From positions 3,596,001 through 3,660,000 of the forward strand of contig NC_090951.1 in the NCBI RefSeq assembly GCF_040807025.1: a DNA stretch of 64,000 nucleotides. Direction: 5' to 3'. A model generated the notes under the pieces. That model worked only from the letters and a program-made list of their open reading frames with translations, had not been told where the DNA came from and did no database searches. Below, piece after piece: positions 41-36,110 of this stretch. Made by a program: the position numbers and the translations under genes. Numbering within the stretch: the stretch's first letter is position 1; each line of letters begins with the position of its first letter. This DNA comes from Struthio camelus. Taxonomy: Eukaryota; Chordata; Aves; Struthioniformes; Struthionidae.

Positions 41-7126
<7,086 letters not shown>

Positions 7127-8228: not shown

Positions 8229-11200
8229 ATGTTGGCTTCAAGGGCATTTAGTCTCATTGGCAAAAGAGCCATTTCCACTTCCATCTGCATGAGAGGACAT
8301 GGACAGGGTAGGTGGCATCTGCTTCCTCTTTAGAAATGACAGTGAGATAAGCACTTTACAGAAGAACATAAAACACTGCTCTTAGGAGCTTTAAACTTGA
8401 TTAGGAGAGCTTTCTTTGCCAAATTCACGGTGATTCCTCATGTTAAATGAAGCAATCTAAGATGCGGTAAAGAGTGTTTAGAAATACAATGTGGGAGGGA
8501 ATTGGAGTGGTTAAGGACATTAGGCCACTAATGTTTTTACACGAGAACTTGATGTGTTGTAACTTCAGGAGACAAATAACATGAATTTTGTCCAAAAGAT
8601 CTGAATAAGACGTAGGGAGGTTCAATAGTTCTGCGTTCATGTTTTTGTTTGCCAAATGCAGCTTTTTAGCAGCATGCACTTGCCCAGGAATCCATTTCTG
8701 AATGTGCTCGCAGTGGTGTTTCCTGACCCAGCAGAGGCTTAGCATCTTTTCTGCAGCTTTTAGCTAGGAAGTGTGTTTGGCTAAAGACAGGAGCAGGGAA
8801 GGCTGGGGGTTATTGAGGCTGGTTTCCTGGCCTGGTGGTGGCATTTGTCTGATCTGATTGGTGTCTTTGCCGGTAGAGGGCATTGCGGACGTACAGGCAG
8901 AGATAGCTGTAGAGGGGGGCATTGTAGGAGCAAAGGTCTTGGCAGGAACTAGAACGGAAAAAGTGTAGGGGGCTTGAGATATTTAGAAAGGAAGATAATC
9001 AGTGCGACACTTGGAAACAGAGGAGTCTTAGAGACTTATACTTTAAAGTAATTTTTGGTATTATATTTTATGTAGATCCCCTAGTATTATTCTTACACTC
9101 TTAAAACAGCACTCATTCTAAGAAGTATCTCTTTTCCCTCTTTCTGTGCCGTAAACGTGGACAAGACTAACTGGCCAGATGGGATCCGAATATATCGTCT
9201 GGAACTGTTTTCCCTTCTGGACTCCTTAACTATCGTTGGTTTCTTGAATTGTACTTTTTTCCCCATAGTAACTGGTAGGAGATGTTTGTGTAGAAGTCAG
9301 AAACTTGAGTCAGCGTCTCTTCTGTTTCTGTACGCAGCTGGTGTTGTGAAAGCAGAGGACTTCAGCCTTCCAGGATACACCGATCGCCGTGATGTTCCCC
9401 TGCCTGAAGTGGCCTTTGTAAGGGATCTCTCTGCTCAGCAGAAGGCTCTGAAAGAAAAGGAAAAGGCATCATGGACTGCTCTGTCTGTTGATGAGAAAGT
9501 TGAATGTAGGTAGTGGGAGCTTTAGATAGACCTTACAGCTAACGATAATGTGCGCTAATCTGTTACATGTGCTTTATTGATGACTCTCTTATTGGAAAGA
9601 CAGCCATGGAAGGCAGCTCTAGGCTGCTCTTAGGCCCTGCTCTTTTAAATGGATCTGTAGGCAGAGACTGGAGCCAAGAAGGAGCCATTAAATATGGTGG
9701 AGCTCCTCAGGTATGCACAAATGGAGATCAGTGTAGTCTTCTGTAGCTGGATTCTTAATGCTATTTCAGCAACTCAGATGCACCTGACATCACGTGGTAG
9801 ATTTGACATAAGGAATCTAGCTAGCAATTGGTAAAAGTTCAGCAGTTTCTTCTTCTTTAAAAAAAACTTTTATATTTCTTTCTTGGTTCCCATCTGTTGC
9901 AGTGAAGAGACTTTCTTCTGGGTTGTTGCTAACAATATGTGATTGTATTAGTTCAGTTGAGTAAAATGAACTATGTATAATTTGAATGTTACTGGTTGCT
10001 GACCTCAGCATTACAGAATTTCAGCTCATTGAAGTGTCAAGCCAGTGTTCTGACTTGCAGATGAAACTGTATCATCTTTTCTGGCTGCTGTCATGCTGTG
10101 CAAGTGATACCGTGTTGTGTGGCATCTCGTGTCTTCCCGTGTCAAAGTGAGAAGGTGTAAAACTGAGTTTCTGGAACTCCTCAGACGTTCATTAGCCCTC
10201 TCCAGATCTAACGCTGTTTTGAACTGCAGAGTATTGAGGTGCGGGTCTTACTGGCAGAGCTGACAGCAGCCTTTTTAGATGAAAGCATTTCTGTTCAAAT
10301 GATTTGTGCAAGTGAGATTTATGGTAAATAGCCATACTCGGAATTGTGGGGAAGGAAGGAAAGCTGTATTTCTCCTTCTGCCAGGCCTAGTATGCGACTT
10401 CAGCGCAACTTCACAATCATACTTGTTTGTATAAAATAGCGACTAACTCTGACTTTACTGATGAGGGGATGGTGAAACACAACTTGTTTACTTTGGCACG
10501 AGCGTCAAGGTATTGGCATATTCAAGAGCTATTTTTACTTCCTTTCCATTTCAGACAGCTTTAGACTTTGGTCATCTCCTGCTGGACCCTGTCTTGTTGC
10601 CTGCATGTTGCAGGAAAAAATGAAATAAATGGTTTGATGTTTTCTTTCCCCCTCCCCCTCCCCCTCCCGCCCCAGTGTATCGTATCAAATTCAATGAGAG
10701 CTATGCAGAAATGAACAGAGGATCAAATGAGTGGAAGACTGTCCTCGGTGGAGTACTGTTCTTTCTTGGCGTAACTGGTCTCTTCCTTGTTTGGCAGAAA
10801 ATGTATAGTAAGTAAATGGCTTATAGTTACAACTCTTTTATTTGAGACAGGTATCAGTTAATATGGAATGCAAAATTTGAAAATCTTCCATAAGCCGCTT
10901 GGGAATTCAAAATGTTGCATGGAGAGCCATACTGGTGACTGCTTGGCAATTGCTGTTTGCTGTCCTTTTAAAACTCAATTCTGGAATTGTGGCTTAATGG
11001 ATGTAAGCAGGTGCGTAGCTTAAATATTCAGAAAGTTGATTGTAGAAATGTGACGTTGGTGGACAGAGTTTTGAGGGGAAGAGAGGAAAGGCAGATGAAA
11101 GAGTAGGGGTGTACTAATGGTCCTAGAGCTTCCCGTCTCTGTGAAACCTGGTATCCCAAAAGCTTATTGCCTTCCTGGTAGTAAAAGTTTGGGGCTTTGC

Positions 11201-11720
11201 CATGTCTGGCTTCCTGCCCACGAAAAGATCCTACCTGGAGCGAGCCCTCCAGTTGCCACGAGGCAGCGTGTGCAGGTAAATGAGCTGTTATCAGTCTTCA
11301 GTCTTTATCTGCTCACAATGAAGGTTAGGAGAGGGAGTCATCTTTGTACCCGTTTTTACTGATTAAGGAAACTGTTAGAGACGCAACAGAGGAGTTTGAC
11401 TGGTCCAAGCTCAACACCTCAAAATCAGATTTAGGAAACCTGAGTTTAAGCAGGTGCTGGCACATATGTGATCAACACTGATTGCTTCAGGGGAAAAAGC
11501 TTTCCATTAGTGAAACTTGTACGTCTGCTCCCAGCTTGTCCTTCTTGTATCACAGTGTAATTCCCCCTGCTTTTGAATTGCAGTGTATGGTCCTATTCCC
11601 CACACCTTCTCTGACGAGTGGTTGGCAACGCAGACGAAGAGAATGTTGGACATGCGGATTAATCCTGTTGAGGGCATCTCTTCCCAGTGGGATTTTGAGA
11701 AGAATGAATGGAAAAAATGA
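8229..11720 (+). CDS. COX4I1: COX4I1, cytochrome c oxidase subunit 4 isoform 1, mitochondrial
   Basis: This is a nuclear-encoded regulatory subunit of respiratory complex IV in the mitochondrial inner membrane. The coding exons are 8229-8307 (exon begins 8228), 9338-9505, 10676-10807 and 11584-11720 (TGA 11718-11720); phases 1, 1 and 1 join cleanly. The product is 171 aa, against 169 in human. The N-terminus [19 protein letters not shown] is a basic, serine-rich mitochondrial presequence. The mature part has family blocks [31 protein letters not shown] and [10 protein letters not shown], then a transmembrane helix about residues 102-121 ending in WQK, then [16 protein letters not shown] and the C-terminal [10 protein letters not shown]. 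The residue at the last junction is Met where human has Val (A plus TG). The acceptor before exon 4 has a C-rich tract of repeated CCCCCT. The head-to-head EMC8 partner supports isoform 1 rather than COX4I2. Confidence 0.97.
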
Positions 11721-14680: not shown

Positions 14681-17600
14681 ATGGGGAGTGGAATGAGCAA
14701 GGTACGGGAAGGACGGCAGGACGGGGCCAGCGCGCTCCTCCTTGGCAGCATCTTTTTGCTGCTATCCAGGGGGAGGCTCGTTCCCAGGCTGCGACAGTGC
14801 CCTAGATGCAACCGGTTGCATCTTCCTTTTGTCTTTCCCCTTCAAAACTTTGAGCATTTGAGAAAGGGAATTTTCCACATCCATTTAAAAGCGAACAGCG
14901 ATCCCTGGATTTATATTCAGGGTGATGAGCTAAGTGCTGAAGTGTGTTTAAAAAGTGACAGCTGGCTTTAGGTCCCTTGGGTGGTGAAGCCCTGGCGCTA
15001 GTGTCCTCAGGGCTAACGCGGGCCCCTTGGAGCCTGCTGGACTGCGATCCAAAATTACTGGGGTGCGTGCGGGGAAATTTCCTTCCCTTGTCACCTCTGA
15101 GACACCTCTGTGCCTGGGGACAATGCATGCAAACGGGCCAAGTGGGGTTTTACTGATGGTTGTTGCTCAGCTGAACTTCAGGGCTGGCAGAGGGGATTGA
15201 TTTCTGTTTGTATCCTCAAATAACTGCTCAGTACATGTGTTATCCAACTTAAAATTAGACCCTGGAACAACAGCAGAGACACCAGATCAGGAGGAGCTCT
15301 CTCTGGGCAGCTCTGCTGCGGTTTAACACGGGGGTTTCAACCCCTGTGGCCGCTGGCCACCCCAGGAAGTGGCTCCGGCTGCCTCTGCGCTGGTGCTGCG
15401 GGTCCCAGCGCTGTGCTGGGGCTGACACCTTTGCATTGCACCATCCGGCTTGGCCTTTGCGAGACGCGGGGCTCAGCATCCTCCTTTTAGCTGGTCTCTC
15501 GTATAGAGCCAGGCACGGGGCTGGAAATGGGGAAGGCAGTCGACAGCATTTACCAGGCTTTCAGAGGGTTAAAGGTGTGTTTTACGTACAGAACGCAATT
15601 GCTGCTGTACAGCACTCGCCGGGATAACTCGGAGCCATCTCTGAGCTTTTTATTACTCCTCTGGGTAACAAAAATTAATAAATTCCTCTTCGGCCGTCAG
15701 GCTCAGAGCACAGCTCTTGGTGTGCATGCACCTCGGTACCTGCACCGGGGAGCTCGGTGGTCCTGCAGGGTGCTGCAAAGAGTCCTTTGGGTTCTCACGG
15801 TGCGATTCCTTGTTAGTAGACTGTTCTCCTTTTTTTTCTGCCCTGGGGATATGAAATGCCCCCACGTACTGCTCACCGAGTTTGTTACGCACAGCGCATG
15901 TCCTTTCATATCATTGCACTTACTGCAATGGCTTTCTGCAGTTCAAAATAAAATACATCTAAGGTTTTGCTGTGTTGGGGGCAGAGCCGTTGACCGAATC
16001 CAGGTGTTTGCACCCCAGATATTGTAAATAAAGGAGCACGGCTTCTCCCTCCAGCTCGTGTCTCCCGTTACATGTACGACTTGCCCGCTGGCAGCGTTGG
16101 CGTGAGACCCCAGCCCCCAACGGGCCGGGGAACAAGTGCACAGCTGGTCCAGGGCAAGGATGTTTGCTGCCAGCTTAGCATCCGTGTGTTTGGATGAACG
16201 ACCCGGGGAGTGCAAAGGTCCTTTGCCGAGGTGCGGAGCGAGCGGACTGCAGCCTCGAGAGCAGGTTGGCGGCGTTTTAAGCGTTCGTGGCCTCGGGAGC
16301 TGGTGCAAGGACTTGGCGCTGCTTCGTGGGGCCGGCGGTGCAGGCTGAGGATGTGCGTCTGGCCTCCAGGCCTGAGCTGCCAAGCCCCCCTCTCTGCTAG
16401 GAAAACCTTTCTGCAGCCTCTCGAACAGGGTTTCTTCTGCCGGAAGGGTGCAAACAAATCTTATCGGGAACCAGCTCTTCTTTTCCATGCCTCTAGAAAT
16501 GGCTCTAGCAGGTTATTACACTCCATAAATAGGCCAAATTGTCCCTCTTTCTTTTTTGTAGCCAACAGCAGAGAGTGGGAGACAGAATTTGCACACTCAG
16601 AGGCACTTACCACAGCATCCCGGCCAGAGAAGCATTATAAATAGCCCGTGCTATTTATAATAAATTTATAATGCACATCTATTCCCAGCTGGCAGAGGCA
16701 ACCTTTGAAACTATTTGGAAGAGGCAGTTGCTATAGAAAGGCAAAGCAAAGCTGCGGGCCGGCCTCTGCTTGTCCCTTGGGGTCCAAGTCCCCCGTGGCG
16801 GCCAGGTCGGGCTCCTCGTGCTCCAGGGGCCCCGTGCCGGCAGGTCCCGTGTGCCCTTTGAGCCACACCTCGCCGGCGGAGGCTCCGGGGTGACCTGTCT
16901 GGGGAATCCAGCTCCCAGCAGGACCTTTCCATTAGCAGCATGACCAAGGGACAACATGCAAGCTGGGAAACCCATCCTCAGCATATGTACTGAGTTTTCC
17001 TGAGCTCTGCGCTCCTGGAAGGGTTTGCTCTGCGTCTCGCACCTGCAGGAGTTTTGGCTGGGCTCAAGCTGGCGCCGTCGGTCTGGTAACGAAGACGGTT
17101 TGTTGATTAGGTGCTTAGTCCATAACTGCCTGGGGGAGTTTGCTGCCGGAGGCCTTGATCCTGCGTGTGCGAGTAGCACGTGTGCAGCTTGATGCTTCTG
17201 AACAACTTTCTGCGTGGTGTTAGATTAAGCAAATGTGTTTGCTTGTGGGTTTGGGAAGCAGGAAGGAGAATCTGGTGAAAGGAGGAACGACACTTTGCTT
17301 TCCTCTCTGGTCCCCTGGGCATCTATAACCCCAGTGGCCAACACGGTTGGCTCTTTTAGGCTGCAAGGTTGCTTTTCCCCCCAGGGAGCTGTCTGGGCCT
17401 CTCTGCTCTGGAGGAAGGAGAAATCCTGGGTCAGGTCCTCAGGAGTCCTCCCGTCTCCATCATGCAGGGACGCGTGTTGCACCTGATGCTGTCTGAAATC
17501 TCCTTTTTGTCTCTTCCCAGGTGGTTAAAGGCCTCTATCTCGGGAACATCCGGGGTAAGTGCGTTTCTCTGCTCCACCTCCTTCACGCACGCTGCATTTG

Positions 17601-18395
17601 CTCTGCGCGAGTCACCGGTGCAGCGGGTGCCGGAGGGCCCCTCTCCTCCCCAGGCTGGGATCTCGGTCATTTCAAGATCCTCCGATCCTGGAAATCAATG
17701 TTTTGAAAACTGCAGCTGGCACTATGGAAAAGGGTGTTTCCACGTCCCTTTTTCAGCCCTCCCTTCACGCCTTGCAGAAAATCCTGTTTCTTTGGGAGGC
17801 TCCCTGCGGCTGCTCCCGCTTGGGGACCTCGGGGCCTTCCGGAGAACCAAAACACTGGAACAGCCCCATCCCAACTGCAAGTCCAGGGTGTCCCCATGTA
17901 AACAGGAGCAGTGCTGGCCCTGGGGAGGGGCTGTCCTCGGGGACCGGCAGTCACCGAATGTGCCTGGGCGCTCAGGGCCCGATCTCCCGGCTGCAAACCT
18001 CCCTGTGTTTGCTGAGATAATGTTTACAGCCAGGGCCAAAGCTGGGCTTTCCTGGTCCAGCGTCCAGGCCTCCAGCTCCATGCGGCCGGGTTTCACCTAC
18101 GCAGCAGGACACAACTGCCTTTTCCAAGTTAGCAGGTTCGCTTCTGATTTCAGTGGTGGTTTTAGGAGCTGCCTTGCCTGCCGACCATCCAGTGGTGGTC
18201 GTTGCTTTGAAGGAGGTGCCTTGCAGTGCCTCTGGGCTGACAAATGCTCTACGAACTCTGGGGAGAGAAAATCATCCTGCCCCAGCAGAAGAAATACCTT
18301 TTTATTCTGATGAGCAAATTTCCCTTGCTGGAGCTTGCCTTGTTGCCTGGTGTTTTAGTGTCTCTCTGGAAAGGCCGAGCGGATACTCTGCAAGG

Positions 18396-18433
<38 letters not shown>

Positions 18434-21400
18434 ACAGATTTCTGCCATGCTCCTCCTGCCCTCTGCAGTGAGCCACCCCTCCTTTCCCAGGGCAAGGGGG
18501 CAGGCAGGGACCCTCTCTCCATTCCTTGAGGCAGCGGAGGGGTCTGTGCTGGGTGCGAGGGGAAACGTGCTGGCACAGAGCGGAGGGGCGACGGCTGCTC
18601 GGAAATCTCTCCACCGGAGCCAGCCGCGTCTGTGAAATAACCGGCATGCACGAGGGGGAAGGAGCGGCTGGATTTGTCTGACTTGTTGGATGGCTAGAAG
18701 AGGGACTAGAGCATCCTGGAGCTGGTGAACATTGCTTGGATGATTTCGAGCTGGGGCTGGTCTCCCTTCCTGCCCCTGCGGTTGGGCATCGCCCGAGGGG
18801 GAAGGCAATGGGGAAGCGGGTGCTGGAAGCTCGAAGGGTCACGGCTGTGCCGCCGGGAGCAAAGCCGCACCCTGCCACGGGCAGCGACGCTACATCCGAT
18901 CCAGGTTTCCGGCTGGTGCTTTGTGAAGCGCATCTTGCCGGGGGAGGGAAAGGCAGCGGTGGAGGTGGGGGGGGAGTCACGCGTGTTTTCCCGCTTGCAG
19001 ACTCTGAGGACCGAGACAACCTGCTGAGGAACGGCGTGACCCACATCCTCTCCGTGCACAACAACGCCAAGCCCGTGCTGGAGGTGAGCGCGCCCCACGC
19101 GCGGCGGAGGGGAGGCCAACGGCGCGCGTGGGAAACGGCGGCGGCTGCCGGCGCTGCCGCCCGGGGCCAGCGGGAGGTGCCGGCCGCGGCCGGGGCCACG
19201 AGAGGGCATCGCCGCCCCGCGCAAAGCGGGCGCACGGCGCCGGCGGGGGGGGGGGGGTGCTGCTGCCCGGACCCCCCGGCGGTGCTCGGGCCCCCGGGAC
19301 GGGGCGGGGGGGTTTCCCTAGCGGCAGGGGAGCCGCGACGCCAGCCCCGACGGGGCGGCCGCAGCCGCAGCGGGGACGGGCACAGCCCGCGGACCCCCCC
19401 CCCCGACCCCCTGGGGTCCCTCTGCGGCCGCTGCCTGCCCACGGCGGAGCCGATGGCAGGGAGGAAGAGGAGGCTCCGGGCGACCCTGCGCAACCCCGGC
19501 TGCTCGGGCTGGAGCACGTCCTCCGGCTCGCTCCTTAGAGCAAGGGGAAAAATATCCCTGTGCTCTTTGGGCCCCGTGGCTCGGAGCAGTGTCGTGCCTA
19601 AACCGACCCCAAAGCTCCCGCCGCCGCAGCCCCCGAGCGCGGCAGCTGGGGGAAACTGAGGCACGAGGGAGCTGCTGCCAAAGTTAGCCCAGTCTTTCGA
19701 GCGCGAGTCCTGCGTGCGCGGACGGGCTCTGGAGGTGAGGGAGCGGGTCGGGACCCCGCTGCCAGCCTCCACATCTGGGCTGTAGAGGGCTAAGGGGCCA
19801 GTCGGCAGCGCTCGTCCCGCCAGCAGCGCTCGTGCCGTCTCACTCTCTCTCTTCCAGGAGCCGCAGCTCAAAATAACCGCAGGAGCTTTTCCTTGTGAAG
19901 GGCATTGAGTAACTTGGGAGGGGGCAGGAAGAAAGCAGGAAGGAGGGTGCATAAAATCCGAGGCCGAGAAACGGCTCGCGGATTGAAGCGGGGCAGCAGC
20001 TGGTGCCGCGGCGGAGCGGCCCAGGCCCAGTCGGGCAGCAAACCGCTCGGCGCGCTTACAACACCGCGGGCCTGGCGCGAAAGGGGAACTGGAAAGGCAC
20101 GGTGGGTTGAGCAACGTGTCAATCACAGCGCCAGGCAGGGAACCGCAAACCCGCACTGGGGGCCCGTGCATGCAGCCCCGCTGCCCTCCCCGTGCGGGGG
20201 ACCAGGCACCCCATCGTTCGTGATGGGGAGGAGGAAGCGCCTCGCAGCCTGGCAGTTACTCCAGGGTGCGTGTGCGGGGCGGGCTGGGGCGCTGGGAGGT
20301 TTGCATGGCGCCTTTGCTCGCTGCAGGGGCGTCAGGCCGGTGCCCGGGTGCCAGGTGCGGGGAAGCTACAGCCGGCTCTGTTGGCCCGTTGCAGCCTGTT
20401 CTGCTGCCGTCGCTTGCTTGTGCCGAGCCCGAGGCTGGTTTGCTCCCTCCAGCATCCCGCTCTGAGTTGCGGCCCTGACTCACCGTCCCCTCCTCTCCCA
20501 AACCTGCGTCCCTGGAGTTGCCGGAGCCCCTCAGTGCCAATCTGCAACCCCAGCTGGTCCAGACAGCTCCGTCCCCTTTGGTCCCCTTGCTCCCACTCTC
20601 CTGTCCCAGCCGGAGCTCCAGGACGCCCCGGGCTGCCCCGATGCTGGCAAGCCCGCAGTTCGGCCAGGGTGAGGAGGGAGAAATTGCTCGGCCCCGTTTC
20701 GGTCCCCATCTCCTGCGGCCTCGCTGAGCATCTTCGGATGCGCTGGGCAGGGTGGCGGCTTCGCCCGCACCACGGCGGAGGGCGCAGGACGGGTGTGATG
20801 GTGGGTGGAGGGGGACACACACGGGAAACTCCCTGCACAGCCTCTTTGCGGGCAGCTGGCCCTGGAGCCTGGGTCCTTCCAGAGCAGGAACATCCCAGCG
20901 ACATTCCTGGGTTTGAGCCTCTGGTGGGACATTGCTGAATGCCTGTGACTCTCCAGCCCAGTCCGGTCCCTCCTGCAGCCCTCTGACTCAAAGGGATTTC
21001 CTTTGGCCATGTGGAAAGTGGGACTCATTGCACCTTTCCAGCAAGCGTCGCTCCGGGGTTGCTTGGTTTCACAAATACCATCTTCAAGGGCTGGGCCGAG
21101 ACCCATCAAACTCATTCCACACGTGCTCCCAGCAGCTCCCGTCCACCTGCAGCAGCCGGGGCGGCTCGTGAGTGGAGCAGCGACCGTGCGGGGCTGCCCC
21201 TGGCCGTGCCGGAGCTCGCTCCGGGTGTTTTCCAGCCGCTCGGTGGGCGGATGGGTCCGGAGCCGCCCGGCAGGCGCGGGTGTGCAGCGGCCGTGAGTGC
21301 CGGCCTCGACGCCGCTTGCGCGGACCCTTCCCTTCGCTCCCTCCTTAAGCTTTCTGCTGCTCCCTGTCGCCTGGGGCTGGCGTTTATCATCACCTGGACT

Positions 21401-24400
21401 TGTTAGCAGAGATGCCTGGAAAGGGAGGAATGAAGACGGGGCAATCTTTGGTGCCCGGGTGCTCGGCTATTTCAGCTCTGTCTGGCAGGATTTCCACCCT
21501 GTTTCGCTTTGAGGACCAAAAAAAAAAAAAAGTCAGACGAAAAGGATCTAATTTTAGTTCGGAACAGGGAGGATCAAGGAAGCGATGTTTTAAAGAAAGG
21601 AAAGTGATCTGACCTACGCCAACGTGCGGCAGGATGATTTATTGTGTATTAAAAGGATGGGGAGGAAATAACTCATTGATGAGTGTGACTGGGGGAATTC
21701 GTGTCTGCCCACGTCTTCCCGGCAGGGCTCGCACCTCGCCGCCGCGGGGCACCTGGGGTGCGGGAGCCGCCGGGGTCTCGCGGCAGCTCCCGCGGGAGAC
21801 GCGTCGGGAGCATCCTCCCCGCTCGGGAACCGTCCCGGGCGCTGCTCTGAGCCCTGGGGAAATCCTGCCTCTGCCCACAGCAGAAACTCCCGGGGATCGA
21901 GGAGGGATTTTACTCCGAGTGCATGTTACGTAGAGGCTCCTCTAGGGAGAAGGAACAGAGAGAAATGGGAGATTTTGCATTTCTCCAAGGTATCTTACTG
22001 CTGCAACTCTCTTCTTCTTGCAGGGCATGACTTATCTCTGTATATCGGCCTCGGACTCATCGAGTCAAAACCTGTAAGTGATTCACAATCCTTTTGCCTC
22101 CCTGGGTAGCATTTTGCTAATTCTCTGTCATTTAAAGTTCACATTCTGCCGAATGAAGGTTCAAATTGGTTCATGCCGCAAAAGCTTTGTATCATTGCTG
22201 CGCTTCAAAAAAGCGGTGGTTCACTCTCAGGTGGTTAACAGTATCTGGGGGTTTTAAAATTTCTGTGTTTCTCTGTGTGTACACAGTCAGTAAACCTGGT
22301 AAATCTGGTTTTTCATTGAGTTTCAGAATTATTTCCACCATGAAGGTCTCAAAAATGGTACGTTCTTCATTGGCTTGGGTGGCGGGGGGAAAGAGTTGTA
22401 TAGATATTCCCAACTTTTTCCTTGAAAAGAGAACTAGAATAATTGTTAAAATGATTTTTCATGGAAAACGAGAGGCAAGTGTGCAGGACAGCGCAGGTGA
22501 TTTCTGTAGAAACCAGTCTGGTAGAGGCCATGGTTTTCCACTGCTGCTTTAACGTTCACTAACGTTATCCGCATGGGTTATTGCATGTAAACTGGGGCCT
22601 GTGCAGGCTCCCACTCCCTTGTGGGAGATGCGGTGAGTTGCGACGGACTCAGCCTCCCAGAGAGGGGGTGCCGGGGCCCGTGGCAGCTCTTTCTCTCCTG
22701 GGACCTCACATGTCAGAGTCGGCCCCGTGACCAGACCTAAACCCGTTGCAGAGGTGCTGGCTTTCCAGTGTCTTTTGGAGAAATCGGCCTTGTCTCTGGC
22801 GAGTAATTCTGCTTGCTCATACTCCCACTGCACGGAAAGAGAAGCTTTACAAGAAAGCCTTGCCTCAGCAAGAACAGGGTTTTTTGGATGTTATTTTTTC
22901 TCCCCTCTCGTTTCTTTGTGCTTGTGGCATGTCTACTTAAAAAAAAAAACACCAAGAAAAAGCTTGGTTGCCGGAAGGAAGACTTATTCTATTTTTTGCT
23001 TGTCAGTTTATGCCTGGGATTTCACAATCCCGGTGAACTTGGTGTCCTGGAGATGCTTACGCCTTGGGGCCTCGGCAGCTCATGGCACCGCTGGGCTGAG
23101 CGCTCCGGTCCCACGGGCTGAGGCCGGTAACGCGTGGGGAGACCTTCCCTCTCGCTGGCCCGGCCGTGGGAAACCTGGTGGAGCTGTGGAGAAAAGGAGA
23201 GCCCTCCCTGGGATCTGGAGGACTTGGACCCATGGGGTCCATGTAGGCCATCCGCAGCGGCCCCGGGGGCTGCTGTCTGCCTCTCTGCTCCGTGAAGATG
23301 ATCAGGATAACCCAGGATAACAAGGGTTATCCCCCAGGATAAGCTTTGGTATGAGCCCAGGGGTCAGGAAAAGCCCCTGCACTCGATGCTGAGATGGTTG
23401 GTCCCTTTGCTACTGTGGTGGAAGATGAACCATTTCCGTAGCCCATGAGGAGTCATGAACTGGCACCTCCTTTAATGACCAAGAGACTCAACATTTTGTG
23501 TGTGGCCAAGGCTTCGGCGAATTCCCTGTTTCTCCTCTTCTTGAGCTCTGGGTGGCAGAAACCCCTGCTCTTTTTGAACATTGTCTTTGGTTGGTTTCTT
23601 AGAAGATGCCCAGACTCTGCTCTTCCAAAGAAAGAAGAAGAGTATCCCTCTTGATCAGACAGAGGTGGAAAGTTTTAGCGGGTCCTGCCTTATTCCTGCA
23701 GGAAAGCCAGGTCTGAGCTCTCGCCGGGGGGTATCAGCTAGGGACAAGCCTCTGGTGGGGACGAAGGTGGGCGAGCCGGGCTCTGGGGGAATAACTCTGT
23801 GGCAGCTTGGGTCTTGGCTTCTGAGAAATCAGGAAGGCCGGGCGAGCGCACGCCCACCCTCATCACGCGGAGGCAGAGGAAGTCCGGGAGCCGAGCGCGC
23901 CGGCGAGAGGCACACGCCGGGGTCGGCCGGCTCCTGGGGCCGCCGCACCTCCTGCTCTCGGCTCGGCCCGTCCCGGCTGAGCGAGGTGGGACAGGCAACG
24001 CTGCCCAGACTGTGGTCCACGTTGCCCGGGAGCTGGCGATCTCTGGGGCTCCCGGCAGCCTCCCCCCTTCTGATCGGTCTCTGCTTCCCAGCCGGGTTAG
24101 TGCAAACACTTGCTTAGCAAGAAAATACCTGGCTCTGCAGGGCCTCTCTCGGAGGTGTCGGTCAGTTTGGGTGGGATTTAGCAGCTGCTTCCCACATCGC
24201 TCGCGGTGATGAGCAGCAGCGGTGCCCATCACCGGGGCGCATGCAGCAGCGAACGGCCCTGCTCCTCCGCTCCCGCGCCGGTCGGGGTTAAGGCGATCCC
24301 CTGCCTTGCCGGGAGCCGCCAGTTACTGGCAATGCTTTTTATTTCGGGAACGCACCCAGGTGCCCAAGGGCACGTCGCTGGGCTGTTGCTGGCAGCTCTG

Positions 24401-27400
24401 CCTCCCGGCACGGCCACAGCCCTGCTCGGAGCAGCTCCCCGCGGCCGGGCAGGACTCGGCAGCTCCCTGCGGCTGCTCCAGGGGGGAGCTGGGGGCCCCT
24501 TGGAGATGGAAGGGGAAAGGAATGACCCTGCTCCCCCCCTTCTGTGCCTACTGGAAGGGTGGCTTTGGCCAAAATGGCTTGTGAGCCACCTTGGTTGCAT
24601 CTTCCTTCCAAGGGAAATGGGTGCTCTTGGCATCGAGGGTGAGTTTCCCAGGCCGATCCTTGCAGCTGATGGGAGACCCTGGGGGACATCTGCTGGGCAC
24701 GGGGCGCAGAGGAGCGCTGGCTACCCGCTCCGCTCGGGCACCGAGGCGGGCTCAGGGCGAGCTCGTCACCTCCACCGCCGGGACGTGCCCGTCCCGCGGG
24801 CGTCTTGCCCCGGAGGCTGCCTCACCTCTGGCTCATCCCCGAGCTGGTTCTGCTGGTGGCGTCGCCCTGCTCCAGGCTCCATGCTCTGGGATGCAGGAAA
24901 TCCCGAGAAAGCCCTTCACATCGTTTCCTTCCTCCTAGATGGAGATCAGTCCCTGCGCCCTCCGTCCCCCAGCCTTCTTGTGGGCTGCGGAGGCTGGGAA
25001 ATCCTGGGAAGGATTGCTCTTCTTGGAGATGGCCTCTCGTCCTGGGACTCGCTCAGGGCCTCGCTGCGCGCCCCCCGCCTCACCTTGCTGCTTCTCTCCC
25101 TCCAGGATGCAGCATTTCAAGGAGTGCATCAAGTTCATCCACGAATGCCGGCTCCGCGGGGGAGGCTGCCTCGTTCACTGGTAAGCGCTCGCGTAGCTGG
25201 GAGGCCAGAGGCTCGCTCGGCGGAGGGAGGAAGGGTCCTGGGCGCTGGCAGGAGTGGTGCAAGGTCCCCGCGCCCTTCGTCTGAGGCGTGGGAACGGGAT
25301 CCCCCAGAGAGCACCGCCGGCATCGAGCACCGGCTGGGGAGAGGAAACGACAGGGCAAGGTCTCAGCTGCCGCCGCTCCGGCCCGTGGCAATGGGTGCTC
25401 CATGCCCGGAGACCCCACTATCCAAACAGGGGGGGCAGGGCATGGGGGGGGCACCCGCAGTGGGTGTTCCCGCGGGAGCACCCCCGGCACAGCGGATGCC
25501 CTTGGAAAGATGCATCCCAGCTCGAGGCCCGGAGCTGAGCCCCGGGCTGGTGGCCGAGCTGCCCGGCTCCAGCCTGCCACGCGGTGTCCCAGCAATGGGA
25601 CCTGCTTTGGGTGACAACTTATTTAAAAAAAAAAAAAAGGGGGGGGGGTTAAAGCCACCAGCGGGGCCAGTGCCGTCGGCCTCGCTTGCTGGGGGGCTGC
25701 GCAGCCCGAGCGCCTGGGATGCCCGCGGGGTGACGGCTCCCTCGCGCCAGCCTGGCGGGGGTTTCCCGCAGCACCACCGTCCTGGTGGCTTACCTCATGA
25801 CGGTGACCGACCTCAGCGGGGACGCGTGCCTGGCCGCCACCAGGGCCGTGCGGTCCTACGTCAGCCCCAACTTCGGCTTCCAGCAGCAGCTGCAGGAGTA
25901 CGAGGCGACCTTGCTCAAGGAGGTAGGTCCCGCTCCGCTCGGCGCCTCCCGGCTCGCGCTGACGCTCCGCAGCGCACGTGCGCGGCGCAGCAGGGACGCG
26001 GCGCCGAAGGAGGCAACGGGGCCTCCGGAGCCCTACCTCTGCCTGCGGAGCGTGCAAGCAGGCACGGCTGCTTTGCATGCAGCGAGCTGCAGGGCCCAGA
26101 TGTTTGCCCAAGCTGGCCTCTGTACGTGCTATTTATTACCTGGGGGGTTTTGCTTTTTGCATGCGTGTATGCGTGCATGCCTGCAAAAAAAAAAAAAAAA
26201 AGTGCCTAGATATTATGCGAGTGCACTTAAAAGGGCTGTTTGAAAACCCAGCGCTCTTATTTTCTCGAGAGTCCAATTAGGACACAGCGGGAGGGATGGG
26301 TGAGCGCCAAGCCCCGCTGGGAGTTAGGGGAAGGGAGATGGACCGATTCCAGGGAATGCCCCAAGCTTCCCAGGGCGCCACGAGGTGCAGCTGGAGCGTC
26401 GGCTGGGACGCGAGGGTGGGACAGGAGGGGGAGGCAAGGTCCCCGCAAGCAGGTTTGCGCTCCTGGATAGCGCTTGGATGGGGCAGGACTTCATTTGAAA
26501 GAAAATCCCTCGCTTTTAGAAGCATCTCACAGAGAGAAGCAAGCGTTAATTAAGAAATTCTCCCAAAATGAAGCAACGCATCGGGTTTTAGGCGAGCAGC
26601 AACAGTGACCGAGCGGGTAAGTCCCGTGCAAGGGAAGGACGTCCTCGTAGCTAAGCTGGCCTCAAGCCGTATCCTGGAAGCCGGAGCGATAGCATCGTGT
26701 GTGCTCGGGCGACTGCCAGCCGCTGAGATCAGAGCTGCACTTTTGACCCGGAACGAGGCCCTTTTGAAGCCCCGGCGGAGGAGAGGCGGCGCCGCCAAGC
26801 CCGAGCGCCGAGCCGTGCCCGCGGCAGCCTCCGGCGAAGCGGAGGGCGGGCGCCTCGGCCTCGGCCGCCGGGACACCCCGGCGCACTGGCTCTGAGCAGC
26901 CGGGCAGCTGCCAGCTGGGCTGTGGCTAGCAAGGAGGGGGCCGCCGCTCGGAGCAGCGATCGCTACCCTGAGAGCGGTGGGAAACAGGGGCTGCCTCCTT
27001 CCGGCTTGCTGTATCCAGGGCATCCTCCAGCCCCCGTCACTCCTGAACTGGCTCCTCTCTGCATCCCTGGGGGCAAAGCCCCAACCTCCCCCTGGCCCAG
27101 CAGCCAAAGCATCTTCCTCTGCTGCAGCCAGGAGCTGTCGCGCAAGGGCCCTTCGTTGCACAGCCAACTGCAGCAGGGGCCCGGCGGCCTCTCCGGCCGC
27201 ACCACGCGGTCCGAGGGGATTTCTCGCCTCTTCTCCCAAGCGCCGCCGCATGTGACCCGGCGCCGAACGTCAGCGCCTTCCCACGGAGCAGGTTCCCTCC
27301 CACGGCGGCCGAGGCGGAGGGAGCGGGTGGACACCGACACATGAGGGACGCAGCCCTGCCGGGCTGTCACCCGCTTGCAAAACACCAGGTCCGCCGGAGT

Positions 27401-30400
27401 ACAAAATACCCGCCACGCTGGAGATTCCCTGCGGGGCTTCCCCCGGCGAGGAGAGCACTCCCCGAGCCTTCCCACGCGCCGCCGGGATGCTGCGCGACGG
27501 GTTGTCCTCCGAGGGGAACGGGCTTTGCCATGCCTCCGCAGGCTGCTGCATTGGAGTTACTCCCTCAGTTCCCCCCAAATCAGGGGTGGCCTCTGCAAAC
27601 GCCATTTGTTCTTCCCTTTTCTTTAGCTTACAAGTTTTGTATGTCTTTTGGTTTCTGAAAGTCGCACTGTGGATTTTGCAAAGGTTTCCCTGCCAACGTC
27701 AAAGGCAGAACCCCTACATCGGGCGAACTCCCTTGGATGCATGCCTCTGAGCATTGGGGTTTAAACAAGTTGCACAGATTTTGCAAGCACTGCCTTTTAT
27801 TTGAAATGCATCACGTTCCCTATGATCATCTGCAAATGTCCTCGTGGGTGGACTCCTGCTAGCGCAGTCCTCAGGGCAAAGGCTGGGCGCTTGCGAGGGA
27901 GAATGAAAGCGCTCTCACATTACTCAGGCTCAGCCGCATTTTAATAATGGGAAGTATTAGGATTTATGCGCAAAAAATTTGCTCTGGACAAGCAGCAACT
28001 GATAACTTAGCCTCAGCGGACCAGGCGATGCTGTGCTCGGAGTGAGCCAGCGCGTTTTCCATCTCTGAGCTTGTTTTTGCAGGAGGAAGGACTAAAAGGG
28101 CCTCTGCGGCTTGGGACAGGTTGGGCTGGGTGCCGGGTGGTGGGGCGTGCAGGAGCTGCAGGTGCTCGCTGGTACAGGGAGCTGCCCCACAGCTGGGTGC
28201 CCGTGTGCAGGTGCGACCTGATGCCGCCTCGAGCCCGTGCACATCCCTGCCTGCGTGCAAACAGCTCTGCTCACAGTGTGTAGCGGTAGGCTTGCCTTTG
28301 CTTCTTTTTCTCTGAGAAAAATCAGAGCTCGTCCTCATTTGTGGGTTTAGGGTTGCTTTCCAAGTGTGCGTCGGTAGGAAACGGGACCGTTAGAGGATAT
28401 CGTGCCCTGATCTCTGCGGAACAGCAGCTTGTGCAGATGATAAAGGAAAGGGGAGGTCAGATTTCCTAATTTAGCCCAGCTATCGTCTCAGAAGGCAGAA
28501 ATACGGAAATGCAGTTCTTGAGAACAGATATGGACACGGGGCTGAGCCTGGGAAACGGGTGCCAAAGAATGATTTCTTGTTGGCTAAAACCTCCCAGTTA
28601 CAGACTGCCCAGTTTCAGAGCTGGGGCGGGGGGCTGCAGGCATACTCACTTCCATGCCTCAGTTTCCACCACTCTCCACCTGGACCGGTGATCTCAAACA
28701 AGACCCCAGGAGTTAGAAATGGGGAAGATCCGCTCTGCTAGTGACCGGTCCGGCCCTCGGCTGGGAGGAAACGTGGCTCTAGCATGCCGCTGTGGTTTTG
28801 AGCTGGCAAATGGGGCTTCTCAGGATGGATAAAGAGGGAAGGAAGGGACCAAGAATGGCAGAACGATGACGGGTAAGGCCAGAAAAGGAAGTAACCCCAC
28901 GCGAGAAGCAGCACGGGTGCGAGAGAGGGTGCAGCTGGGCATTGGGGTGCCGGACATGTCCCCTTGCCCAGAGGGGCCACCGCAGCGTGGGTGGGATGGG
29001 TGCTGCCAGCCCACGGAGGGATGAGCGGGGCAGCGGGTTAGTGGTCAGCGTTGGAGGAAACGCGCCGTAACCACTTCTTTCTTGGCTTTAAGTGGAAACG
29101 CATGGCAGCAGCAGCAGGGTGGTTTCCCCCAGCACCCCGCTGGCTCCGTCTGTCCATGCCAGGAGGCAGCTCAGAGGGTGGGTGCCCCGGCGGGCGCCGA
29201 CACGGGTCCCTCGCTCCGCAGAGCTGCATCCCGCTCGGCTCCGGTGGTGCAGAACACCTGAACAGCATCCAGTGACCTCCAGGCACTGGCCCGGAGGAGA
29301 GAAATCCAGTCCAGCCTCCAGGACATCCAACTTGGAAATCACCTTGGGATGTCATTCCCAGCGGCTGTTTTCTAGCAAGGAAATTGGCCTCGGCTCCCCA
29401 GGCTCGGGCCGGCGTCCAGCACGAATGACAGGTCTTCTTGCGTCCGAGCGGCGAGCGTGCAGCGGACGCGGTGAGTCCCCGGCCTGCCGAGCGAGGGGAT
29501 TCGGGAAGCCCAGACATTCCCAGCGGAAATCCCCTCTAACCCAGCTGACTTTCCCTGGCTGCAGGGAAAGGGGGACTATTGCAAGCGTCAATCTCAGACT
29601 TTCTCCCGTTACGCCTCAGTGGTCCCCACGGTCCCGCCGTCCCGGCTCCAGCATCGCTGCCGGTCTGGCACCTCGTGGGGCGCGGGAGCTGCCTGCCCCG
29701 CTCCTCGCAGCCCGGTTCCCCCAGCCATGCCTATCCCGGTGCTATCCCGTACCCAGGCCTGGTGCTGCACGGCAGAGCCCATGGTGCCGTCTGGGAGCAG
29801 CGGGTGCTGCCGGGGGTCCGATGCTCGGTGCCTTTCTGGGTCTGCGCCTTCAAACCATGAACCCCCCTGATTTTTGCATTCCTGATCCATGCCCTCTATC
29901 CTTTCTTATAAAAAGGTGTTTAGTATTGCAGGATATGCCTTAGCCCGGTCTTCCCACTGGTCCCAGTCACTTCCGGCTGCTGGAGCAGCTGGACACCAGC
30001 TCCTGTGGATGGTGGCGAAGCCCTTGCTGCCCCCATGAGCAGAGAGCAGAGCACCCACCAGCCACGCCGACACCGCAGGGGCCCGCGGCAGCTCCCCGGT
30101 TCTGCCTGCACCCGCGGAGGAGCGTCCTGCAGTCCAGGCCTGTTTCTAGCCCTGGCGGGAAGCGTTTCTACGGGCCGTCTTCCACTTTCGAGCAACCTCC
30201 GGCCCCCAGGCTGATGCCAGCTGGCCCCCAGCCACCAGGACGCAAACGCAGTTGCATGGCTGTGCTCCTAAAACCGGGGTGCCCTTTGCCTCCGGCTGCA
30301 GGGACGGAGGCTCTGGGGGTGCTCCCCTGCCTGCCGGATGCGGGCGGGAGGTGGCTCTGCAAACAGATCGCCTAACGGGCAAGAACCGACTTGTCCATGT

Positions 30401-31464
30401 TGTTCGCGGCGGTAATTCCAGCCTGACACCACGCTACCGCAAAGTACGAACAGGGAGCAAGCGTGGGGAAGCTTTCCTTACAGTAATTCAGTTGTAAAAG
30501 GAACAACAGCAGCTTCTTGGCAACAAAAAGTAAATAAAGCTATTGTCCTGCCACAGCCCTGCATGAGAAGCCGAAGCTGCTGCCAAGTCTCCTGCCGGGG
30601 CTGACCCAGGACCCGGCTGTGCTCCTCTTGCCCCGCTCTGGCTGTGCCCTTCCCACCTGCTCTGCCCCGGGCCATCCTGCTCTCCCTTACGCTCGCCCAG
30701 ACAACCAGCAGCGGGAAGCAATTTTTGAGCAGAGACATAAGCATGTCTATGACTTCGTTGCGTTGAGAGCAAGAGCCTTCTCCGCTGGCGATGCATTGTC
30801 CCTTCCCTTCCGGGCTCGGCTCTCCCCATCTGCACGTGCCGCTTTTCTCCCGCTCCGTCTCCCCGCGCTGGCGGCTGCAGCAGCACCCCCTCCGCAGCGC
30901 GGCAGCTCCCCTTTGGCACGTAGCTGGGACGCCGGTGCGGTGTCCTTCATTATTTTCACAGCTGCACAGGTCTGTTGGAGCTGGCAAAGGCTCACTCTTA
31001 CCTAGTGGAGGTACCTGCCCTGCACGGGACACGAGTTTGCAGAGTCTCTGCGCAGTGGGGGGGCCCACATGGCCCTTTTTCTGGGGAAACTTGGTACAAA
31101 ATAGTAGTGTTGGGTGGCATGCCTGCTGCTGCGAAACACCGCCCTGGCTGTTTGCTGACCAAGGCTGGGGCCCCTCCGACCCCACGCCGTGCTGCGGTGG
31201 GGATGTGATGCGAGCCGGGGCCGCCGCAGCCCCCGGTGACCTTCCCAACCTCTTTGGACTTTCTCTCGGCAGTACCGTGCCTGGATCCGGCGTGACTACG
31301 GCAGGAACCCGTTTGGTGACCAGGAGGAGCTGCAGCGCTTGCTCGCCCGGCAAGAGGAGCAGCCCGGGAGCAGGGAGCCCTCCTGGATCGACGCTCCAGC
31401 TCCCGCTTACCCACGGCCCTACAGCGCCTGCGGCACCGGCAGGAGCAGATGGATGAGCAGATAA
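14681..31464 (+). CDS. DUSP22-like dual-specificity protein phosphatase (DUSP22/DUSP15 family), third paralogue next to IRF8
   Basis: This encodes a 208-aa atypical dual-specificity phosphatase, from a family that dephosphorylates phospho-Tyr and phospho-Ser/Thr in kinase signalling (DUSP22 is also called JSP1/JKAP). Exons: 14681-14701, 17521-17554, 19001-19083, 22024-22073, 25106-25180, 25751-25922 and 31273-31464 (TAA); all have GT-AG ends and matching phases. The start ACCATGG is an ideal Kozak context. MGSGMSK matches the N-myristoylation signal of DUSP22/15 (Gly2). Visible blocks are GLYLGN, VTHILSVH, general-acid D57, HFKECIKFIHECRLRGG, and the P-loop HCLAGVSRS with catalytic C88 and R94, the positions used in human DUSP22. 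The Cys codon is split by intron 5 (TG, then C). MTVTD and NFGFQQQLQEYE follow. The tail from Y146 (YRAWIRRDYG...) is family-like at first, then divergent. The protein mixes DUSP22-like and DUSP15-like residues but is nearer DUSP22. No disabling change is seen. The upstream non-coding exon and expression are unknown. Confidence 0.9.
14702..17520 (+). other. DUSP22-like intron 1
   Basis: This is GC-moderate intronic sequence between the myristoylation-signal exon and exon 2. It holds AATAAA hexamers by chance (for example near 16024) and no recognisable gene or transposon. Confidence 0.75.
18399..18430. repeat. (AT)16 microsatellite
   Basis: Sixteen perfect AT dinucleotide units lie in intron 2 of the DUSP22-like gene. 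The repeat is likely to vary in length between individuals. Confidence 0.95.
19000..20330. promoter_or_regulatory. Internal CpG island over exon 3 and intron 3 of the DUSP22-like gene
   Basis: CpG density is very high from exon 3 (19001) through about 20,330, with GC-box-like runs and long C and G tracts (near 19245 and 19393). It is comparable to the EMC8/COX4I1 island and denser than the sequence around the gene's own ATG. An alternative first exon could end at a donor-like GGAG/GTGAGG at about 19734. Alternatively, this may simply be a GC-rich, recombination-driven segment of an avian chromosome. Promoter activity is inferred. Confidence 0.45.
19084..22023 (+). other. DUSP22-like intron 3
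   Basis: The first part is the CpG island described separately. The remainder to exon 4 is GC-rich and includes a 13-base A run near 21519. No coding exon is supported besides the flanking ones. Long open frames on both strands here result from low stop-codon frequency in GC-rich DNA. Confidence 0.7.
22074..25105 (+). other. DUSP22-like intron 4
   Basis: This intron holds no supported gene. It contains a small GGATAA-rich inverted repeat at 23305-23332 and a CpG-richer stretch around 23,830-24,030. A 667-codon open frame that starts at 24206 runs across exons 5 and 6 in the wrong frame and is not a gene. Confidence 0.7.
23305..23332. repeat. Short inverted repeat, GGATAACCC / GGGTTATCC
   Basis: A perfect 9-base stem (23305-23313 and 23324-23332) flanks a 10-base loop that itself contains another GGATAA. 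A further GGATAA follows at 23337. It is local, intronic and of unknown function. Confidence 0.7.
25923..31272 (+). other. DUSP22-like intron 6
   Basis: This 5.3-kb intron separates the phosphatase-core exon from the terminal exon. It contains a CpG-dense block (about 26,640-27,330), scattered GC-rich segments and an AATAAA near 30530. No coding exon beyond the two flanking ones is recognised. An alternative terminal exon cannot be excluded. Confidence 0.7.
26640..27330. promoter_or_regulatory. CpG-dense block in DUSP22-like intron 6
   Basis: Many CpGs occur in a GC-rich run (for example around 26,755-26,890 and 27,180-27,330). It may be a CpG island for an unannotated transcript or an intragenic regulatory element. 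There is no TATA box and no recognisable exon, so the function is unknown. Confidence 0.35.
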
Positions 31465-32830
31465 ACATCCGGCTGCTTGCGGAGAGACGTTGTCCCTGGG
31501 GCTGGCAAAACTCAGTGTGCGCTTTGCTAAGCGCCCGCGGGTGTCTGCATCTTGGGCCGGAGCGGATGCTGCCAGCCCCAGGAACCGTGCCGCTGCCGGC
31601 CGTGGGCTCCAGCTCGGGGCAGCGGCGGCCGGGGCTCACGGACCCTTCCCCTGGCTAGCGGCTCCGTGTGTGTCTCTGAGCAAAGCAGCTGCTTGTCCTG
31701 TGCCTCAGTTTACCCGTCTGGAAAAGCTCTTGTGGCGCGGGGAGGCTCTGCGGGGTTGCGTTTGTAAAGGCGTGTTGGGCTCCTCGGGCGAAAGGCGCTG
31801 TGGAAGTAAACGTCCTGCTGCTCTGAGCGTCCCTTTTACAGCGAATCTCTCGGCACGGCTCTGCTCCCCGAGGGCAGGCTCCTCCGCGCGCGCGCGGCTC
31901 GCTCTGAGCCACGCTTTCCATCCGCCTTTTGCGACTCTGGGGCCGTGCTGGAGCGCGTGGCCCATCACGCCACGGCCCGGTCCTCCTCGGCCCGTCGCAG
32001 GGCTGCGTCCCGGGGCGAGCGTCTGCAGGCAGCCTGGTGCCGCTGCCCTCCGGGCGAGGAGAGGGCCCGGGCAGACCCGCTCCTGCCTCTGCAGGCGGCC
32101 CACCGCCACGTTTGGACTTTCCTGGGCTAGACTGTCCTCGGCAGATGTTTGTCTGGTGTTTTCTCAAAACTCCCGGGGGGGGGAAATCCAGCGGCTCTGG
32201 AGACTGCCTGTTCCCCAGTGCCTTGATCCTTAGGGCTGGATCAGCTTTGGTTTTCCCCTGCTGCCCAATCTGAATGTCCCTGGTTGCAAAAGCAGCCAAT
32301 TGCTCCACCCTACTCAGACGACCTAAAGAACAACTTAACAGCATCCCTCTGCAACAACGGCCTTTTTAACGCTGAAAGACTGTTACTGGATCCCTTCTTT
32401 TTAGGCCAGGCACCACGTCCCATGCACCACGTCCCGTGCACCACACAGCTCCTTCTCAGCCTGGTTTCTTCTGCACAGAAGAGACTGGCCCGGCATTAAG
32501 GCCCTTTCAAGGGTCCTTTTCACCCTAAGAAGACCCAGTCCTTTATTTGCTTTATTTTCTACCCGTCATCCTTCTGTCCAGTGACACAGCCCTTCACCAT
32601 CTTTGCATCTGGAACATCTAAGTCTGTTATGCTAGCTCTGTCTTCTGCTATAAATACTTCGCTTGGCTGCTCAAACGTTTCTGTTCTGCAATCCATTCTG
32701 AGAAAAAAATTGGGCTTAAAATATTTCTAGGAATTCCCTTAATTGAAATTTCTGGGTACTGGATTCTCCAAGTGTGACAACGCCATGGATGACCTGAGAA
32801 ACTTGTAATAAAGGGAAGATTGATTAATAA
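31465..32830 (+). other. Probable 3' UTR of the DUSP22-like gene, with candidate poly(A) signal
   Basis: The first AATAAA that I find after the TAA stop is at 32807-32812, which would give a 3' UTR of about 1.35 kb. A CpG-rich patch lies at about 31,850-32,110 within it. The end is inferred from this hexamer alone; a variant signal could end the message earlier. Confidence 0.35.
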
Positions 32831-35125: not shown

Positions 35126-35339
35126 ATGCGTGTGTCATCTGGTGATCCCAAAAATAAATAATAATTGGGAGGGGGGAGGGGGGAGACAGCAAAGCCCCGA
35201 ACCCAGGCGGCAGATAGCCTGAAAGCTCTGCAAACGGCCCGGGCGGGGGTATAGGCACCGCAGGTAGCACTGCAAAGGGCCGTGGAGGTTTTGGTGCGGG
35301 CGCGCGGATAGGAGGCAGAAGAAATGCCTCCTAGCGGGT

Positions 35340-35634
35340 AAGAGCGGGGGGTGCCCGACGGGGCGGTGAGGGGCGGTGCGGTGCGGGTCCGCGCCGTCGA
35401 GGCCGCCCCCGCGCCGGCGCCCAAGCCTGATTTCTCGGAAAGGCGCGCGCTGCGGAGAAAGCGCCGGGCACCGCGCGCTCGCCATTGGCCGGCCGGCCGG
35501 GAGGGCGGCTCGCCATTGGCCGGACGGGCGGCGAAGGCGGGGCGGCCGCGGGCCCGCCCCCTGCGCCCCTATAATGCGGTGCGGACGCCCCGGCCGCGGG
35601 CGCTGGTGCGGTGCGGAGCGAGCGGAGCCGGCAG
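35340..35634 (+). promoter_or_regulatory. IRF8: IRF8 CpG-island promoter with GAS site, inverted CCAAT boxes, GC boxes and TATA-like box
   Basis: A STAT1-type GAS element TTCTCGGAA at 35432-35440, in the context GATTTCTCGGAAAG, matches the interferon-gamma response element of the human and mouse IRF8 (ICSBP) promoter as I recall it. Two inverted CCAAT boxes (ATTGG at 35484-35488 and 35515-35519) lie in near-identical GCCATTGGCCGG contexts. GC boxes lie at about 35536-35545 and 35553-35560. A TATAAT box at 35570-35575 would set a start near 35600. The order and spacing make an interferon-inducible promoter. Confidence 0.8.
35600..35634 (+). other. IRF8: IRF8 non-coding exon 1 (5' UTR)
   Basis: About 30 bases after the TATA-like box, transcription should start near 35600. 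The first good donor is GGCAG/GTAGCG at 35634/35635. The ATG exon has a splice acceptor one base before its start codon (39546), so a separate 5' UTR exon is required. The short length fits mammalian IRF8. The exact 5' end is inferred. Confidence 0.6.
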
Positions 35635-35744
35635 GTAGCGGCCGGGATCGGGGCCCCCTTCTTTCCCCCTCCCCCCCCCAACTGCCGCGGGTCTGGCAGC
35701 CCTGGGGACTCGTGTGAGGGATGCCGGGGACAGGGGACCCAGAG

Positions 35745-36110
35745 GAGGGGATGCGAGCTTGTAGGGACACAAGGGATGTGGGGTGCTGAGTGCTTGGGGG
35801 TTGTGAGATGTCGGGCGCTCGGGATGCGTGAAGTTGGGATGTGGGGCACTGGAGGTGCATGAAATGGGGTTGTGGGGCATTAGGGGATGCAGCTGGGGAT
35901 GCACAGAATTGGAGTGCAGGGCGCTTGGAATGCATAAAATGAGGATGTGGGACATTAGGGATGTGCAAAATTGGGTTGCATGGCACTGGGGTTGCACAAA
36001 TGAGGTTGTGGGGCATTAGAGTTGCAGCTGGGGATGTGCAAAATTGAGGCACTGGGACTGGGTGAAATGTGGATGCAGGGTGCTGGGGACACGGGGGCTG
36101 CAGGCTGGTT
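35745..36110. repeat. Degenerate minisatellite in IRF8 intron 1
   Basis: Roughly ten imperfect units of about 30 bases follow the pattern GGGGCATTNGGGATGCA then NAAAATNGGGNTGT. Recognisable variants include GGGGCACTGGAGGTGC, GGGGCATTAGGGGATGC, GGGACATTAGGGATGTGC and GGGGCATTAGAGTTGC. Some units carry an added CAGCTGGGGATG segment. It begins about 110 bases after the first exon. The long minus-strand open frame across it, with its repeating Pro/His/Ser pattern, is a by-product. Confidence 0.8.

Follow-up and report, generated by a model that had tools for sequence, protein, structure and literature searches.

DUSP22 (JSP1, JKAP) and DUSP15 (VHY) are the closest described relatives of a phosphatase gene located between COX4I1 and IRF8 in the 64,000-nucleotide stretch of Struthio camelus DNA analyzed here (the window; positions 3596001-3660000 of contig C10). 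Wotton & Shimeld 2006 (PMC1634998) describe four paralogons, with IRF4, IRF10, IRF8 and IRF9; two of these contain DUSP22 and DUSP15, respectively. In the same text, a dusp gene is reported at the IRF8-side locus on zebrafish chromosome 18 and on Xenopus tropicalis scaffold 188, and the Tetraodon and Fugu arrangement is called similar. This fish and frog gene belongs to the same family and has the same COX4I1-side position as the window gene. DUSP22, which lies beside IRF4, resembles the window gene in its first six exons, in its MGxGM start, in residues D57, S93, C88, R94 and N128, and in lying upstream of an IRF gene on the same strand. It differs in its tail, and the DUSP22 of this genome is 57% identical to the window protein over 157 sites. 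DUSP15, beside IRF10, is likewise similar in its first six exons and in its position upstream of an IRF gene, with 50% identity over the same sites between the window protein and the DUSP15 of this genome.

We consider it very probable that DUSP22, DUSP15 and the window gene are ohnologs, the last on the IRF8 side, dating from the two rounds of early vertebrate genome duplication (2R). The locus is already published, so that this is not a first discovery; the gene adds a bird to it and fills the third corner of the known DUSP-IRF-FOX paralogon. The present analysis contributes a bird, probably a palaeognath, in which the gene is intact, and sets all three loci of a single genome side by side. 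A bird IRF8-side DUSP was not reported in the literature we found, judged mostly from titles, so that a mention inside a full text is possible, and the literature search returned no paper treating DUSP22, IRF8 and synteny together.

An intact seven-exon phosphatase gene upstream of IRF8

The gene spans positions 14681-31464 on the plus strand and has 7 coding exons: 14681-14701 (21 nt, encoding MGSGMSK with a candidate myristoylation signal and ending at a GT donor), 17521-17554 (34 nt, bounded by AG and GT), 19001-19083 (83 nt), 22024-22073 (50 nt, containing D57), 25106-25180 (75 nt, with the C88 codon split at its 3' end), 25751-25922 (172 nt, completing the P-loop HCLAGVSRS and carrying S93, R94 and N128) and 31273-31464 (C-terminal tail and stop codon). 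The spliced coding sequence of 627 bases is an open frame of 208 codons plus stop, and all six introns are of the GT...AG type, with phases 0, 1, 0, 2, 2 and 0. A sequence-only reading of this DNA had proposed an intact seven-exon gene with D57, C88 and R94; the frame and splice sites bear this out, and the three residues were found where it had put them, with S93 and N128 in addition. The lengths of the first six coding exons, and their phases, are identical in the window gene and in the DUSP22 and DUSP15 genes of the same genome. When bases were shuffled within each codon position, 6 of 2000 shuffles gave a stop-free frame (mean 4.9 stops); a chance open frame was rejected on this test together with the matching exon lengths and phases. 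The GC content at third codon positions was 0.84, compared with 0.53 in DUSP22 of this genome. The first AATAAA past the stop codon, a candidate poly-A signal by motif match, is at 32807-32812 (plus strand), and intron 2 contains a TA-rich simple repeat at about 18410-18460, read as YIYIYI in translation.

The window protein matched Pfam DSPc with 101 bits (cut-off 33.5) and carries the signature HCLAGVSRS, of the HCxxGxxRS type; Cys88, Arg94, Ser93 and Asn128 are present, and so is Asp57, the general acid. Among the best 60 of 61 sequence matches in the PDB, human DUSP22 (1wrm) scored 220 bits (E 1.8e-64) and DUSP15 (1yz4) 161 bits (2.3e-46), and the next DUSP family member only 91 bits. Judged by its sequence, the protein is a member of the DUSP22/DUSP15 subfamily of atypical dual-specificity phosphatases: the DSPc domain and signature, D57, S93 and N128, the nearest solved DUSPs and the lengths of the first six exons all agree with this placement. 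Relatives were not found in GTDB genomes or IMG/VR (23 pattern matches in one search, none confirmed by tblastn, and no pattern matches in the other).

Three DUSP-IRF-FOX blocks in one genome

Genome searches covered an assembly of 1.45 Gb in 262 contigs. A DSPc search gave 43 matches, three of which start at profile position 82: that of the window gene on C10 and two others, at C2:104.77 Mb and C18:18.57 Mb, each of the three being exon 6 of its gene. Both further genes were read exon by exon. The one on C2 is DUSP22, identical to human DUSP22 at 138 of the 157 sites (88%), and the one on C18 is DUSP15, identical to human DUSP15 at 123 of them. With the window protein as query, 26 matches were found, all those above 80% identity being on C10; at the sensitivity of this search, no second near-identical copy was seen in the genome. 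The corresponding search for IRF exons found 20 matches, spread over ten loci.

Each of the three DUSP22/15-type genes found is followed on its own strand by an IRF gene and then by one or more FOX genes. From the DUSP stop codon to the first IRF coding match, the distances are 8,082 bases on C10, 26,403 on C2 and 4,475 on C18. On C10, tblastn with typed human sequences placed COX4I1 at window positions 8229-11717 (four matches) and IRF8 at 39547-46365 (seven matches, two exons also matching Pfam IRF). Both are on the plus strand, as is the DUSP gene, and the location between them in the orientation of IRF8, proposed from sequence alone, is thus correct. Beyond IRF8, three plus-strand FOX matches lie at C10:3.90-3.95 Mb, assigned to FOXF1, FOXC2 and a third beyond the fetched stretch; FOXC2 is at C10:3937627 and the further FOX gene at 3947000. 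On C2, DUSP22 (104736428-104776965) is followed by IRF4 (from 104803369, by the IRF search) and by three FOX matches at 105.24-105.38 Mb, whose best scores were with the FOXQ1, FOXF2 and FOXC2 sequences (FOXC1 was not in the query set), all on the plus strand. On the minus strand of C18, DUSP15 (18578956-18571640) is followed by an IRF4-group gene from 18567163 and by one FOX match at 18.562 Mb with near-equal scores for FOXC2 (102 bits) and FOXS1 (100 bits). The IRF4-group gene is called IRF10 here because it neighbors DUSP15, as IRF10 does in PMC1634998. The labels FOXC1, FOXL1 and FOXS1 are given by position alone; chicken FOXL1 had not been identified in that paper of 2006. The proposed parallel between DUSP22-IRF4 and the window gene with IRF8 is supported by this comparison and extends to a third side, DUSP15-IRF10; one or more FOX genes lie beyond the IRF gene on every side.

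Placement of the window protein relative to DUSP22 and DUSP15

A five-sequence tree was built over 157 aligned sites from the window protein and the DUSP22 and DUSP15 proteins of this genome and of human. The window protein is identical to DUSP22 and DUSP15 of its own genome at 89 and 79 sites, and to human DUSP22 and DUSP15 at 93 and 77 sites, respectively. In the best tree the bird and human DUSP22 proteins pair without it (support 90.2/84), as do the two DUSP15 proteins (100/100). In approximately unbiased (AU) tests, placement beside DUSP15 of this genome or of human was rejected (p-AU 7e-5 and 9e-6), which eliminates a recent DUSP15 copy; placement beside the corresponding DUSP22 proteins gave p-AU 0.163 and 0.100 and was not rejected at 5%. 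A position inside DUSP22 or DUSP15, which the sequence-only reading had named as contrary to its proposal, was hence not seen in the best tree, firmly so for DUSP15 and less firmly for DUSP22. On the protein data alone, a copy of DUSP22 origin appears disfavored. The proportions of synonymous differences (pS) from DUSP22 and DUSP15 of this genome, 0.83 and 0.70, are at or near saturation, with proportions of nonsynonymous differences (pN) of 0.28 and 0.32.

A further tree including four provisional sequences was treated as a lead only and not as a test. In it, the putative zebrafish DUSP22-A protein clusters with that of the window gene (113 of the 157 sites; support 99.6/100). With this putative sequence included, the AU test rejects all four placements tried, whether next to DUSP22, within it or within DUSP15 (p <= 0.0006), although a position next to the DUSP22 clade as a whole passes the Shimodaira-Hasegawa test (0.132). 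In the same presumptive set without DUSP22-A, the placements inside DUSP22 are weakly resolved (p-AU 0.07, 0.048 and 0.09). The zebrafish IRF8-side dusp is probably the gene named dusp22a. If this lead is true, fish dusp22a may date from 2R rather than from a duplication of DUSP22 in teleosts, with consequences for the transfer of fish data to human DUSP22.

A difference was seen in exon 6 of DUSP15 of this genome (C18:18572489-18572318), where a Gly-Trp is absent, as it is in the window gene. The site reads LSCQE and LSGDA compared with FGWED, and Gly-Trp is found in DUSP22 of this genome and in human DUSP15.

Origin of the window gene

In the scheme that we favor, one ancestral DUSP-IRF-FOX block would have given rise to several through 2R. 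The resulting blocks would be DUSP22-IRF4-FOXQ1/F2/C1, DUSP15-IRF10-FOXS1, the window gene with IRF8 and FOXF1/C2, and a fourth with IRF9, for which no DUSP was found nearby here. This bird would then have kept the IRF8-side DUSP, as would zebrafish and Xenopus, to judge from the synteny published for them; mammals are reported to be without it. We prefer an ohnolog because the paralogous blocks match in order and strand and because the fish and frog loci are published; the protein data alone leave the question of DUSP22 unclosed. Absence of the gene from non-mammalian IRF8 loci, the other outcome named as contrary, is not what PMC1634998 describes for zebrafish and Xenopus. The claim that the gene was kept here and lost in mammals draws on PMC1634998 and on the human gene order EMC8-COX4I1-IRF8, which is not known to include a DUSP.

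Several points weigh against an IRF8-side ohnolog. A DUSP22 origin is not rejected by the five-sequence AU test, the three-locus comparison comes from one bird genome, and the putative orthology with the fish and frog gene is argued from position. Moreover, PMC1634998 says that chicken, as well as mammals, lacks a dusp at the IRF8 locus (as of 2006), although that absence, in view of the window gene, does not extend to all birds. An alternative that accommodates the first of these points is a later, lineage-specific duplication of DUSP22 (or DUSP15) that placed the copy ahead of IRF8, where it evolved fast. The residues that the window protein has in common with only one human paralogue would agree with this, 27 being found with DUSP22 and 11 with DUSP15 (157 sites). 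However, DUSP15 origin is rejected, the place and strand relative to the IRF gene equal those of both paralogs, a dusp gene is published at the same locus in zebrafish and Xenopus (PMC1634998), and all six introns lie in places common to the paralogs, by which a retrocopy was rejected. We therefore regard a later copy as improbable.

The reported absence from chicken and mammals could also mean that the window gene is a decaying or unexpressed relic whose frame was kept by chance in this bird. Against this, the splice sites, the 208-codon frame and D57, S93, C88, R94 and N128 are all intact despite the divergence in pS from both paralogs, and we consider a relic very improbable.

Predicted product and regulatory setting

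The N-terminus MGSGMSK would fit a myristoylation signal. Because the catalytic set is that of DUSP22, the most likely product is predicted to be a myristoylated, membrane-bound active phosphatase of DUSP22 type. N-myristoylation of Gly2 would anchor the protein at membranes; as in DUSP22, Cys88 would attack phosphotyrosine or phosphoserine/threonine, Arg94 would bind phosphate and Asp57 would act as general acid. In human DUSP22, mutation of D57, S93 or N128 is described as lowering catalytic efficiency 40 to 500 fold (PMC7589817). DUSP22 dephosphorylates Lck and UBR2 and thereby restrains T-cell receptor signaling, according to a review (PMC13147768), and the job of the window protein may be similar, switching off kinase signaling, possibly in the same cells as those relying on IRF8. 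The same review cites simulations casting DUSP15 as a non-catalytic adaptor; catalytic residues alone are therefore no proof of activity, which speaks against the predicted enzyme. In Atlantic salmon macrophage-like cells, the dusp22a transcript is reported as lowered by polyinosinic:polycytidylic acid (pIC) at 24 h (PMC5591513). This response would fit a myeloid role, if the salmon transcript is the ortholog of the window gene.

The three blocks raise the question of why DUSP and IRF genes remain paired. A speculative answer, which we regard as rather unlikely, is that a DUSP and its IRF4-group neighbor form one regulatory unit: all three DUSPs would stay upstream of a same-strand IRF because their introns and flanks carry enhancers of that IRF. 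Mammals would then have lost the DUSP exons and kept the enhancers, and, as part of the same unlikely proposal, the loss would have removed a signaling brake in IRF8-dependent myeloid cells. For mouse Irf8, upstream enhancers are described at -50, -34, -26 and -16 kb (PMC10042546).

Neighboring sequence and other loci

At the left end of the window, tblastn with typed human EMC8 (NOC4) gave three matches at 59-7126 on the minus strand, head to head with COX4I1 and cut by the window edge. Upstream of IRF8, the minus strand at 35135-36550 holds a 471-aa open frame of repeated Pro/His-rich units in GC-rich DNA, without a Pfam match; it may be a tandem repeat rather than a gene. The longest frames in the DUSP-IRF intervals exceeded the best of ten base shuffles on C10 (471 and 268 aa, respectively), C2 (221 and 164) and C18 (608 and 344). 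The Pfam search covered the C10 interval, where three long frames matched no family; the long C18 frames extend into IRF10-like exons. A further gene may lie between DUSP and IRF.

An IRF9-like gene was found at about C29:561426-563073, its DNA-binding exons sharing 60% and 67% identity with human IRF9. No match to DUSP, EMC9 or PSME1 was found near it at E 1e-3 in 39.7 kb. An IRF3-like gene lies near the contig start at C34:1549-3709, its exons being closer to human IRF3 (64% and 60% identity) than to IRF9 (42% and 36%). A fourth DUSP beside the IRF9-like gene was not found at E 1e-3 in 39,700 bases of C29 and 9,900 of C34, and none of the 43 DSPc matches is on either contig. In PMC12220609, IRF9 is reported in most birds except Galliformes and avian IRF3 only in Palaeognathae, and GC-rich context is said to have prevented earlier characterization of both genes in birds. 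Finally, contigs C40 and C41 (70 and 90 Mb) have a FOX gene region in common, 97.8% identical over 1,959 bases. Together with the IRF3-like exons, this region suggests a palaeognath bird; from the similarity, the two copies are perhaps gametologs of weakly differentiated sex chromosomes.

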